Shown here piece after piece: positions 32,173 through 38,365 of a stretch of 40,612 bases of DNA (position 1 is the first letter of the stretch; each line of letters starts with the position of its first letter). This DNA comes from Erysipelotrichaceae bacterium. GTDB taxonomy: Bacteria; Bacillota_I; Bacilli_A; Erysipelotrichales; Erysipelotrichaceae. Position numbers and translations under genes: made by a program. The DNA lies in contig JAAXXT010000021.1 of the NCBI GenBank assembly GCA_013334325.1, positions 1-40,612 on the forward strand, read 5' to 3'. The notes below the pieces were generated by a model that searched no databases, was not told the DNA's origin, and was given only the letters and a program-made list of their open reading frames with translations.

Positions 32173-32198
32173 AGTTCTGAAAATAAAATGAAACAAAT

Positions 32199-32230
32199 GA
32201 AAACATCTTGCATAAGCGAGATGTTTTCTT
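32199..32230 (+). terminator. Terminator after the MFS gene
   Basis: AAAACATCTTGC and GCGAGATGTTTT (12 bp, one T-G pair) close an ATAA loop, followed by TTTTCTTT. The loop side also holds the -35 of the next promoter. Confidence 0.85.
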
Positions 32231-32258: not shown

Positions 32259-32954
32259 ATGAACTTTTTACCGATGTATTTGATTGGGGCGATCCTAATT
32301 GGTTATGTTTTGATTCAATCTTTTGTTTTTTATAATAAAGCGTATAAACGAGGTCTTGAGATGGGGATGACCAAACATCAACTCAACGAAACGACTCGTA
32401 GTTCAGCGATCTTCTCGATCGTACCTTCTATTCCTATTTTAATAGGCTTGGTTGCGATGGTGCCTTTGTTTGGAGATGCGGCCATACCTTGGATTAGATT
32501 AAGCGTATTAGGTTCTGTCAGTTATGAAACTTATGCGGCTTTGGCGATTAAAAATGCGGCAGGGGTCGTAAGTTTACTCGAAAATATGAGTGTTTATTCT
32601 TCTGCTGTTTGGACGATGACCATTTCGATCATGAGTGGAATGATCATATTGATTTTCTTTTATCAAGGGTATACAAAGAAACTCGATGAGATACGTAAGA
32701 AAGATGCCCGCTGGTCAACCTTGTTGATCGCAGCCATGTTTATGGGTCTTGTAGGTACCATAGGTGCTCAACAAATCGTCTTAGGAGGCTATAACCTGAT
32801 TGCCTTGCTTATCAGTATGGGCATCATGGCGATCTTAGGAGGTCTATCGTTTAAGTTTAAATGGCTGGAAGAATTTGCCTTACCGGTTTCTATCTTAGGG
32901 ACCTTAACGGCACTTTACTTTATCATGCAGATCTTCGGAGAAAAAATCGTATGA
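32259..32954 (+). CDS. DUF5058-like membrane protein
   Basis: 231 residues with about six membrane segments (near 5-25, 50-72, 115-135, 150-165, 175-195 and 205-225). I recall similar proteins annotated as DUF5058, but cannot confirm by search. Polar stretches inside membrane regions (SVLGSVSYETYAALAIKNAAG) suggest a transport path. AAAGG lies before ATG 32259; longer starts would enter the promoter. Its stop overlaps the ATG of the next membrane protein (ATGA), and that one overlaps a peptidase gene. The three-gene coupling implies a single functional unit, perhaps peptide or acyl-amino-acid uptake. Confidence 0.6.
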   Translation: MNFLPMYLIGAILIGYVLIQSFVFYNKAYKRGLEMGMTKHQLNETTRSSAIFSIVPSIPILIGLVAMVPLFGDAAIPWIRLSVLGSVSYETYAALAIKNAAGVVSLLENMSVYSSAVWTMTISIMSGMIILIFFYQGYTKKLDEIRKKDARWSTLLIAAMFMGLVGTIGAQQIVLGGYNLIALLISMGIMAILGGLSFKFKWLEEFALPVSILGTLTALYFIMQIFGEKIV

Positions 32955-33610
32955 AGCAAGAACAATACATCACCAGTCTACATAAACTAGGTAAACGTTT
33001 CGTTATCATATCGGCTTTATTGATGCTGGCCGTACCTTTGACTTTTAGTATCGTGTATAACGCATGGCCTACCTTAGATCTGATGATAAAAGGTATGTTG
33101 TCGGTAGGGGCAATCTATATCCCGATCGCAATCATTGAGACCTACAATTATGCCCCTATGATGGGCATTGGGGCGACCTATCTATCTAACGTTACTGGAA
33201 ATATCGCGAATATGAAACTACCTGCTGCGTTGACAGCGATCAGATTGGCCAAAGTTGAATCAGGTTCTGATGAAGCCGAGATCATTGCGACCTTAGCAGT
33301 AGCCACTTCATCGATCGTTACCACAGTGATCATCATCGTAGGGATGTTGGTACTGCTTCCTTATATCAGTGTCATCGAAGGTTTCTTAGGGTCTTTGACA
33401 GACTACTTGGTCCCTGCGATCTTTGGGGCCTTAGGCGTTGTCTTTGTGGTCCGTAATTGGAAACTTACGATCGCACCTTTTGTGTTGATGATGCTCTTGT
33501 TTATGTTTGTGGTCAAGAGTCCTACAGTTCAACCTGCTTTGGTTCCTGTAGCCTCTGTCTTTTCAATCGTGGTTGCTCGTCAACTCTTTAAAAAAGGATG
33601 GGTTAAATAA
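32951..33610 (+). CDS. Membrane protein partner of the DUF5058-like protein
   Basis: 219 residues with about six membrane segments. The middle section (ATYLSNVTGNIANMKLPAAL, then a charged loop KVESGSDEAEIIATLAVATSS) is polar for a membrane protein and probably forms part of a substrate path. I do not recognise a family. ATG 32951 overlaps the upstream stop (ATGA) and the TAA overlaps the next ATG (TAATG), so it is translated with both neighbours. A reading that begins thirty codons earlier would run inside the upstream gene and is unlikely. Confidence 0.6.
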   Translation: MKQEQYITSLHKLGKRFVIISALLMLAVPLTFSIVYNAWPTLDLMIKGMLSVGAIYIPIAIIETYNYAPMMGIGATYLSNVTGNIANMKLPAALTAIRLAKVESGSDEAEIIATLAVATSSIVTTVIIIVGMLVLLPYISVIEGFLGSLTDYLVPAIFGALGVVFVVRNWKLTIAPFVLMMLLFMFVVKSPTVQPALVPVASVFSIVVARQLFKKGWVK

Positions 33611-34947
33611 TGAAACAAAGCAGTTCGCTTGAACATCTTCAAAAAGCCATTCAATGCGAAACCATCTCTTATCCTGATCGGTCTCGGATCGATTTCAAAG
33701 AATATGATAAGTTCATCGATTTCGTAAAGAAAGCTTATCCTTTGCTTCATAAGAAAGCGAAACTAGAATTCGTAGAGAAACATAGTCTTGTCTTTCATCT
33801 TAAAGGAAGCACTGATAAAGATCCTATCGCACTGATGGGTCACTATGATGTGGTACCTGTCAATCCGGCGGGCTGGAATGTGGGGCCTTTCTCAGGTGAG
33901 CTTATTGATGGCTACATTTATGGACGAGGCACTTTAGATATGAAAGGCCAAGTCATCGCTGTATTAGAAGCCGTAGAAGCTTGTCTAGAAGAAGGCCTTG
34001 TCTTTGAGAGAGATGTTTATCTCTTATTTGGACACAATGAAGAAACAGGTTCTGAGATGCCTGATTCTGGAGCACGATTGACTCGTGATCTCTTAAAATC
34101 AAGAGGCATACATTTTAAGTTGGTTCTTGATGAAGGAGGCGCTTTCATCAATGGGAAAGCGATGGGAGTCAACTCTACTGTAGCTTTGATTGGGGTAGGA
34201 GAAAAAGGCTATCTCGATGTGGAACTAACTGCAACCCAAAACGGAGGCCATGCGTCTATGCCTCCTGTCACCAGTGCCTTATACGATGTCTTCCAAGCCG
34301 CGATGAAGATGGAGTCGCATAAGTTTCAAGCCGATTTCAATCCCGCCACAAACGCAATGTTTGAAGCCTTGGTGCCCCATATGTCTCAACCTTTGAAGTT
34401 TCTATTCAAATATAAACAGTTGTTTAAACCGATCTTACTTTTGGCTTTGGTGAAGTCACCTGAAACTGCTTCTACCGTAAGAACCACCTCAGTCATGACC
34501 ATGGCTTCAGGCTCTAGTGCCCCTAATGTCTTAGCTCAAGTCGCAAAGGTCAACATCAACTGTCGTATCATACCTGGAGACAGTATCGAAAAAGTAAAGA
34601 GAAGGATCGAAACCAGAGTAGGTCCTAAGATCAAAGTTTCGATTGGACACGGTACTGAACCTACAGACATCTGTAGATCAGATACCCCACAATTTGAATT
34701 GGTCAAGAAAGCTTTGTCTTCTGTCTATCCAGAATTCTCAGTAGTAGCCCCTTATTTGATGGTGGCCGCAACGGATAGTCGCGTCTATCATGGGATGAGC
34801 GAAGCGGTCTATAGAGTAGGACCTTTTGGATCTATGAAAGATGATCGAGGCACCATCCACGCCGACAATGAACGCATCAGCGTTGATTCCTTTCTTAAAG
34901 GCATAGAATTCTTTAAGATCATCTTAAAAGAAGGCAGTAAAGCTTAA
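33610..34947 (+). CDS. M20 family metallopeptidase (carboxypeptidase / aminoacylase type)
   Basis: 445 residues. Zinc-site blocks of the M20 family are visible: MGHYDVVPV (His), GRGTLDMKG (bridging Asp), GHNEETGSE (catalytic Glu-Glu), LVLDEGGAF and the C-terminal IHADNERIS (His). The dimerisation lid lies near 200-330. Overall layout is closest to the CPS1/PM20D1 group, which cleaves dipeptides or N-acyl amino acids. There is no signal peptide, so it acts in the cytoplasm. Its start overlaps the stop of the upstream membrane protein, which suggests that it hydrolyses what the two membrane proteins bring in. A strong terminator follows. Confidence 0.9.
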   Translation: MKQSSSLEHLQKAIQCETISYPDRSRIDFKEYDKFIDFVKKAYPLLHKKAKLEFVEKHSLVFHLKGSTDKDPIALMGHYDVVPVNPAGWNVGPFSGELIDGYIYGRGTLDMKGQVIAVLEAVEACLEEGLVFERDVYLLFGHNEETGSEMPDSGARLTRDLLKSRGIHFKLVLDEGGAFINGKAMGVNSTVALIGVGEKGYLDVELTATQNGGHASMPPVTSALYDVFQAAMKMESHKFQADFNPATNAMFEALVPHMSQPLKFLFKYKQLFKPILLLALVKSPETASTVRTTSVMTMASGSSAPNVLAQVAKVNINCRIIPGDSIEKVKRRIETRVGPKIKVSIGHGTEPTDICRSDTPQFELVKKALSSVYPEFSVVAPYLMVAATDSRVYHGMSEAVYRVGPFGSMKDDRGTIHADNERISVDSFLKGIEFFKIILKEGSKA

Positions 34948-34949
34948 TC

Positions 34950-34976
34950 AAAACGGATCACTTGATCCGTTTTTTA
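34950..34976 (+). terminator. Terminator after M20 gene
   Basis: AAACGGATCA and TGATCCGTTT form an inverted repeat with a two-base centre (effectively a shorter stem with a four-base or larger loop), followed by a T-tract. Confidence 0.88.
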
Positions 34977-35036
34977 ATAAACACTATAAATCACACTCAT
35001 CGTGTGTAGTTTATGGATTTAAACTGTGCGAGAATA

Positions 35037-36253: not shown

Positions 36254-38176
36254 CTATTTGGCATATGATGCAAATAGGGTGATGAATTCATCAAATGACT
36301 TAACTTCTAGAATGGCTTTAAGCTGTTTCTCCTCTGAGATAATTTCGGTGATGAAATCAAACAGGTCCTTAAAGAACAAGCGGTCTTCTTCATGAATCGC
36401 TAACATAAAGATAATATTAACTTTACTGTTATGCCAAAGAATGCCTTCAGGATGGATTGAAACTGCAATTGTCGATTTTTTAGCACACATCTCTAGCGGA
36501 TGAGGCATCGCAATGTTGATATAGGCACTAGAACTGATGGCTTCTCTTTCAAATAATTTTCGTTTGAAGTCTTGATCGACGACACCATACTGATGAAGTT
36601 TATTAGATAAGACTTCTATGGTGTCTTTTTCGTTTTTAAAAGATGGATTCACAAAGAAAAAGTCTTCTTTAAACAAGATCTCCAGTTTAGATTGCATCTT
36701 TTTGCGACTTCGAGCTTTGAGGGTCTCATCGATCTTATGGGAGATATTGGAAATATCTTTGTTAGAAAAATAGTTTGAAACGATAATGAATGGTTTATCA
36801 GGGAATAAATTTAAGGGGATCGTAGAGATCAAAAGGTCATAATCTATATTGTTTTCAATTTCATCTTGTGAGGCAATCATTCCAGAAACCAAGATAGAAT
36901 CACCGAAGATGCCTGTACACTTGTTGACGATATTGGGTTTACTGAAGAAATATTGTGGACACAGAAAGAGGACCTTAAGCTTTGTTTTCATGGCTTTCTT
37001 TTCTTCAATAAGAACACCGATATGTAAGGCAATATAAGCAATCTCGTCTTCTGATAAAACATATCCAGATTTTTGGGTAACGATGTTGGAGATGAAGACA
37101 GAGACATCATAGATAAAAGGATACGTATTCTTAATTTGGATCATCTGAGGATTTCTTAAAATGATCTTGTTTTCTAAGCGAATCAACATGTTTCTTATGT
37201 GTAGTGAGAAACGAATCGTAAAGTCATGACTCTTGAGCGAAAGATTAAAGACATCTTGAGTACGCTGTTGAATCTGAGAAACCAAATCGACTATGCTAGA
37301 GCCTACCACTTCACTAAGGTGATCAATCGTAAGCTGATCAACATAATCACTTAAGACACGGGTCATGATCAACAAAGCTAAATCATAGGTCTCGACTTGA
37401 GTAAACTTGATATTGAATTGGGTATAAATCTCAAGCAAGATATCATCAATAATGGATATGATATTAGAATCGATATCAATCTTGTTTTTAACTTCAATAC
37501 TTTCTTTCGTGTTTTCATTGGATAAGGATCGCTCCATAGTGATTGCTATGTGTAAGATAAGATTCAGTAAAGAAAAATCATCGAGAAAGTAATGTTTGTT
37601 TAGTAAAACATCAGATACGATCTTCTTAACGATCTTAAGATCAAAATGAGGTAAGTATTCTTGAATCAAATCCATTGAAATGAAGTTTTCTTTGGATTCT
37701 TCATAGATCAATCGACTGATCATTTTCTTTTTATTTTTCTCAAGGCCTTCGATGAAGGCAAAGTTATTTTTCGTTCTAAAAATCAAATCAAAATCAACAA
37801 GGTCCAATTTTATCTTAGAAAGTTCATTGTTTAATGTGACAGGTGAAATAAATAGTTCAGAGGCCAAGGTATCAAGATCGTAATTTTCCTCTTCGAGTAA
37901 GAGTTTCTTTAGGATAACCTTCTTACGCTCTTCTACTGTTTGAGGAATGAAGTCGTTTTTAAAGGATTTTAAGATCATTGATAATTTTATTTTGTCTATG
38001 ATCTGGTAACCAAGTCGTGACGACTCAATGAGATCTGGATAGTCTGCATTGATATTATTGGTGTAATTTTTTATGCTTCTTACTGAAAAACCAAGGGTTG
38101 AAGCACACTTAAAAGCGGTTGTCCAGCCTTCTTGACAGCCTAGGAAATCTAGTAGTGCATGTTCTTTATCCTTCAT
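36254..38176 (-). CDS. PTS-regulated transcriptional activator, LicR/BglG-type (HTH-PRD-EIIB-EIIA)
   Basis: 640 residues. N-terminal helix-turn-helix domains (about 1-150), PRD1 (about 175-280), PRD2 (about 290-395), an EIIB-like domain (about 400-490; VLFLCPQYFF) and an EIIA-like domain (about 500-640; INIAMPHP with the phosphorylatable His) follow in order. Such activators are controlled by PTS phosphorylation of PRD histidines. PRD2 retains both His (SLHIRN, IALHIG), PRD1 seems to keep only one (LILHIA). ATG 38176 is chosen since AAAGG precedes it, while the ATG at 38200 overlaps a TATAAT. It faces the PTS operon and is its likely activator. Confidence 0.9.
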   Translation of the reverse strand: MKDKEHALLDFLGCQEGWTTAFKCASTLGFSVRSIKNYTNNINADYPDLIESSRLGYQIIDKIKLSMILKSFKNDFIPQTVEERKKVILKKLLLEEENYDLDTLASELFISPVTLNNELSKIKLDLVDFDLIFRTKNNFAFIEGLEKNKKKMISRLIYEESKENFISMDLIQEYLPHFDLKIVKKIVSDVLLNKHYFLDDFSLLNLILHIAITMERSLSNENTKESIEVKNKIDIDSNIISIIDDILLEIYTQFNIKFTQVETYDLALLIMTRVLSDYVDQLTIDHLSEVVGSSIVDLVSQIQQRTQDVFNLSLKSHDFTIRFSLHIRNMLIRLENKIILRNPQMIQIKNTYPFIYDVSVFISNIVTQKSGYVLSEDEIAYIALHIGVLIEEKKAMKTKLKVLFLCPQYFFSKPNIVNKCTGIFGDSILVSGMIASQDEIENNIDYDLLISTIPLNLFPDKPFIIVSNYFSNKDISNISHKIDETLKARSRKKMQSKLEILFKEDFFFVNPSFKNEKDTIEVLSNKLHQYGVVDQDFKRKLFEREAISSSAYINIAMPHPLEMCAKKSTIAVSIHPEGILWHNSKVNIIFMLAIHEEDRLFFKDLFDFITEIISEEKQLKAILEVKSFDEFITLFASYAK

Positions 38177-38198
38177 ATCGCCTTTGCTTTCTACACTC

Positions 38199-38365
38199 AT
38201 TATACTAAGAGTATTGTAGTTTCTGCTTCTAGATAATAAAATACTCGTCTTTGCCTACTCAAGGTGCAAAAACTAAACTATAATTTATTCACATTAATAA
38301 AGATAATGAAAGTGTAGTTTAATGCGACACTCAACAGTCCTATTAAACAGCATTTCTTGCAAGAA
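38199..38365. promoter_or_regulatory. Regulatory region between licR-type gene and PTS operon
   Basis: The minus strand has TATAAT at 38204-38199. On the plus strand TATAAT at 38279-38284 is a -10 for the PTS operon with no good -35, as expected of an activator-dependent promoter. ATACT-AAG-AGTAT lies at 38202-38214; GAGTATT (38209-38215) and AATACTC (38240-38246) form a 7-bp inverted repeat. TTCTTGCAAGAA (38354-38365) is a perfect 12-bp palindrome just before the EIIA gene. No clear cre site was seen. Confidence 0.5.

Follow-up and report, generated by a model that had tools for sequence, protein, structure and literature searches.

The window, a stretch of 40,612 nucleotides from an Erysipelotrichaceae bacterium (contig JAAXXT010000021.1), contains a compact cassette of three genes, referred to here as A, B and C. 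Gene A (32259..32954, + strand) encodes a DUF5058 membrane protein of 231 aa, B (32951..33610, +) a membrane protein of 219 aa with no named family, and C (33610..34947, +) an M20 metallohydrolase of 445 aa that is without an N-terminal anchor. The overlaps between the genes, ATGA for A/B and TAATG for B/C, can be read directly from the sequence. The trio is bounded on both sides, as a hairpin at 32196..32228 (+; fold z-score -6.3, with a terminator-like scan match at 32199-32228) ends the upstream MFS gene, and a second hairpin follows C at 34950..34978 (+; z-score -5.2, -12 kcal/mol). The first-pass annotation had therefore been right in giving the cassette a terminator of its own, but its proposed promoter was not recovered, as a consensus scan for sigma-70-like sequences upstream of A found none. 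A good Shine-Dalgarno sequence precedes A. Further along the window, positions 36254-38200 encode a PTS-type regulator with HTH and EIIA domains, and a gene of similar size and type lies directly after the M20 gene, on the same strand, in a related genome (L013:1507-3444).

Protein A is a full-length member of DUF5058 (Pfam PF16481), matching model positions 3-221 of 222 with 184 bits against a curated cut-off of 28.2 (E 4e-54). No Pfam or NCBIfam model matched B. The earlier suggestion that neither membrane protein belongs to a known transporter family was borne out by the HMM and profile searches, in which A and B matched none. Neither matched the Gate domain (PF07670), and an origin in the Gate family, represented by YjiG/YjiH and SpmA/SpmB, was rejected at hhalign probabilities of at most 4%, with the profiles for YjiH and YjiG consisting of single sequences; that for YjiH was one sequence deep because no relatives were present in the 195 Bacillota genomes searched. 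Nor were A and B recognisable as homologues of one another, the best alignment (hhalign E 0.015 over 29 columns, 3% probability) being no better than control pairs. Five weak matches to the C-terminal part of DUF5058 were also discarded: three (L017, L049 and L052) appear, from their sequence motifs, to be undecaprenyl-diphosphatase (UppP) and so unrelated, and the scores of the other two (L050 and L051) were too low to count. A search of the literature outside most subscription journals found no paper on DUF5058 or PF16481.

Both proteins have six hydrophobic segments in their hydropathy profiles, in agreement with their first description as six-helix proteins, and in both a long conserved stretch of about 50 residues separates segments 2 and 3. 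Across the family members, A has an average of 2.4 lysine or arginine residues on the N-terminal side of the membrane versus 14.8 on the other side, and B has 7.4 versus 0.9, each bias having the same sign in 53 of 53 members. Hydropathy and the positive-inside rule consequently predict opposite topologies, with A N-out/C-out and B N-in/C-in. The conserved stretch of A, which includes P-W-x-R-L-S-V-L-G, an invariant R80 and an E90 found in 96% of members, is predicted to be outside; that of B, with a motif of G83, N84 and P91, is predicted to be inside. Such opposite-side segments would be the arrangement expected of two inverted carrier halves, with hairpins entering the membrane from both sides. 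Hence a split elevator-type transporter is possible, given that each protein keeps a conserved stretch linking helices 2 and 3, predicted on opposite sides of the membrane; the pair of halves with opposite topology that characterises such carriers is present in A and B at the level of prediction. Single-sequence structure models of the two proteins, with pLDDT values of 54 and 62, were too poor to use.

The third protein matches the M20 peptidase family (PF01546; 113 bits, E 1.8e-32) and its dimerisation domain (PF07687; 41.6 bits), both over the cut-offs. All the metal-binding and catalytic positions typical of M20 (HxD, D, EE, D/E, H, H) are occupied in C, and residues H78, D80, D110, E144, E145, D174, H214 and H417 are invariant in the alignment. 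The first-pass annotation had described C as a CPS1/PM20D1-like hydrolase. This label is based on sequence motifs and on the nearest NCBIfam models, the PRK08262 series (E 1e-85), which we read as that group, but it fails as a statement of membership, since the score of 288 bits is under the curated cut-offs of these equivalogs, which range from 503 to 825. The roles of the M20 metal ligands and catalytic residues are described in PMC11511702. No signal peptide was found in C. Of 38 full-length C relatives, 32 begin with a hydrophobic helix that has neutral or acidic residues before it and approximately four lysines or arginines after it; in L102 an over-extended open reading frame obscures the start. 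This charge distribution predicts an N-out/C-in anchor, such that the enzyme would face the cytoplasm, tethered close to where the presumed importer would release its substrate. The tether is absent from C in the window's genus, and from L011; the anchor is therefore a feature of most C relatives that has been lost in the window's clade.

Among 98 sampled relatives, DUF5058 turned up in 9, of which 8 scored over the cut-off; at the phylum level, 15 of 392 genomes carried it over the cut-off. B, sought independently with its own profile, was present in 39 of the 395 genomes examined from the class. A search of genome contigs with one protein returned one near-identical lake-metagenome contig, and viral contigs returned no relatives. 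In total, 59 loci were compared, from Bacilli, haloarchaea, Proteobacteria, Actinobacteria and human-gut contigs, with all distinct neighbourhoods being read; one (L016) is near-identical to the window. They include plasmid records from haloarchaea, Paracoccus, Vibrio and bacteria of the Arthrobacter group, as well as four human-faecal contigs labelled as phage. The database entries of the latter (L149-L152; MT835800, MT839493, MT838272 and MT836200) name them 'Bacteriophage sp.'; their genes are those of ordinary bacterial metabolism, and a bacterial source is probable.

The observation set beforehand as telling against a shared system was that the membrane proteins should occur mostly apart, or without an M20 gene. 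The opposite was found: A and B adjoin in 59 of 59 loci, the exception in form being a contig end (L090), at which A would fall off the contig, and an M20 gene adjoins in 54. With only four M20 genes over the cut-off in the 1.95 Mb of the window's own genome, we estimate that adjacency by chance would be of the order of 1%. Nor does the trio reflect general synteny, as the flanking genes differ between families. The pair of membrane proteins is found in bacteria and archaea alike, and the hydrolase accompanying it has been exchanged: 43 of the 54 M20 partners are M20A/PRK08262-like, and 11 are M20D (nine of these eleven were assigned through TIGR01891, either by a direct tool match or by profile similarity to proteins so matched). 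The order of the genes varies too, between A-B-C, C-A-B (L111 and L152) and M20D-A-B (L137, L151 and L012). On a maximum-likelihood tree of B, in which several deep branches are long and exact placements correspondingly uncertain, three changes are required to account for the M20D label, and well-supported branches force at least two of them. Hence the link between the A-B pair and M20 enzymes is functional, rather than mere synteny. Both M20A and M20D contain aminoacylases, and M20A also contains dipeptidases (PMC11511702). The cleavage of amides being common to both partner subfamilies is the main argument that the substrate class comprises amides of amino acids.

Taken together, A and B probably constitute a heteromeric importer of N-acyl amino acids or dipeptides, working with a cytoplasmic M20 hydrolase. 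The two membrane proteins would together form one secondary importer for small amino-acid amides; C, as a cytoplasmic amidohydrolase or peptidase, would cleave the incoming amide, and this cleavage would both keep the gradient directed inward and supply the free amino acid. A two-part importer feeding the peptidase had been proposed at the outset, and is supported by the opposite predicted topologies of A and B, the cytoplasm-facing anchor predicted for most C relatives and the exchange of M20 subfamilies. That A and B touch each other and transport a solute, in which direction, with which ion and for precisely which substrate, is our inference. A more specific proposal is that the pair represents a new transporter family of the elevator type, with its two inverted halves encoded as separate proteins, which handles N-acyl amino acids or dipeptides in bacteria and archaea in association with interchangeable M20 hydrolases, often membrane-tethered at the cytoplasmic exit. 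This we advance tentatively, regarding it as possible but on balance doubtful.

The genes surrounding the trios give some indication of the amino acids involved. On haloarchaeal plasmids, trios of DUF5058, B and M20D (L132, L133, L135, L136 and L138) lie beside genes for glycine cleavage, lipoate metabolism (lipoyl synthase) and serine hydroxymethyltransferase, which suggests that glycine is a product released there. A TRIC-family channel gene is also near several of these trios, and a literature search found no paper supporting glycine specificity of these TRIC neighbours. An apparent operon in L012 (2688-8242) instead combines a YheO-like regulator, an M20D amidohydrolase, DUF5058, B, a protein of the ATC hydrolase family and a serine-dehydratase-alpha protein; this suggests a sulphur or hydroxy amino acid, in a context resembling the catabolism of cysteine or a related amino acid. 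Both settings are ones in which amino acids are released or used, in keeping with the importer reading, and their differences imply that the substrate probably varies with the hydrolase. The window's own genome encodes a glycine-cleavage P protein that is unlinked to the window, and glycine is not assigned to the window's trio. Among 46 loci, neither a glycine riboswitch nor any other RNA control was found near the trio, the sole riboswitch being of the lysine type (L111:4827-4997), located downstream of a C-A-B operon and ahead of an ABC transporter gene set.

The same contexts bear on the possibility that the flow is outward, with C either working in the direction of synthesis or trimming membrane N-acyl amino acid lipids, and the A-B pair acting as an exporter or lipid flippase that moves the amphipathic product out of the cell or across leaflets. 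PM20D1 is a reversible synthase and hydrolase (PMC11511702, PMC7145423), and a membrane anchor on most C relatives would suit amphipathic substrates. However, synthesis by M20 enzymes requires high levels of fatty acid and amino acid, the haloarchaeal and L012 contexts are catabolic, and the neighbourhoods read show no recurrent acyltransferase or lipid gene next to the trio, making this explanation unlikely.

The five loci in which the A-B pair lacks an adjacent M20 gene are of different kinds. One is at a contig end (L010), and in another B is broken (L140). On a Vibrio plasmid (L134:7226-10037), A is broken across two reading frames, and IS630 and ISL3 transposases border the pair, which is a decayed copy. 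One pair (L047) is without any hydrolase, and another (L149:1866-6807) follows genes for glycerol dehydrogenase and dihydroxyacetone kinase, from which the A-B pair may have other substrates. The latter two loci favour a two-subunit transporter for something other than an M20 substrate, for instance the amino acid that the hydrolase sets free or some unrelated solute, with the M20 enzyme being only a frequent metabolic neighbour. Yet the adjacency of M20 in the great majority of loci, and the confinement of hydrolase swaps within M20, rather than to other enzymes, make such a role improbable. Still less credible is a role without transport, in which A and B would serve as a membrane scaffold, sensor or channel to regulate or position the hydrolase. 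This would fit the anchoring of most C relatives in the membrane, but not the retention of A and B where the anchor has been lost in the window's clade or, judging by annotation length, is absent from the M20D partners. Moreover, two large polytopic proteins whose conserved segments lie within the membrane would be unusual for a scaffold.

If A and B are indeed an importer, then DUF5058 and the unnamed family of B could be assigned a testable function, taking up N-acyl amino acids or dipeptides in microbes of soil, lakes, salt lakes and the human gut. With their opposite topologies, the two proteins would also represent a naturally occurring counterpart of inverted-repeat carriers, encoded by two genes, in which the evolution of such carriers through gene fusion could be studied.

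The cassette has parallels among known systems. AbgT imports p-aminobenzoyl-glutamate alongside the M20D hydrolase AbgA/AbgB, and so provides a precedent for an N-acyl amino acid importer being encoded with such an enzyme; AbgT, however, is a single large protein from a known family, whereas A and B match no transporter family. The yjiH-yjiG-iadA operon of Escherichia coli similarly unites two small membrane proteins with a cytoplasmic (isoaspartyl) dipeptidase, but YjiH and YjiG match the Pfam Gate family, unlike A and B, to which no profile links them, and IadA is not an M20 enzyme. SpmA and SpmB, next to a D-Ala-D-Ala carboxypeptidase gene (loci L142-L147), likewise form a small membrane-protein pair beside a peptidase gene, yet they belong to the Gate family, and have no profile similarity to A or B. 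As for the hydrolase, C has its M20 fold families and its catalytic residues in common with the M20A group that includes CPS1, PM20D1, ArgE and DapE, but is under the curated cut-off of every named NCBIfam model. Hence the logic of coupling an importer to a hydrolase is already known from AbgT with AbgAB, and possibly from YjiH-YjiG-IadA, while the membrane pair formed by A and B is not a known one.
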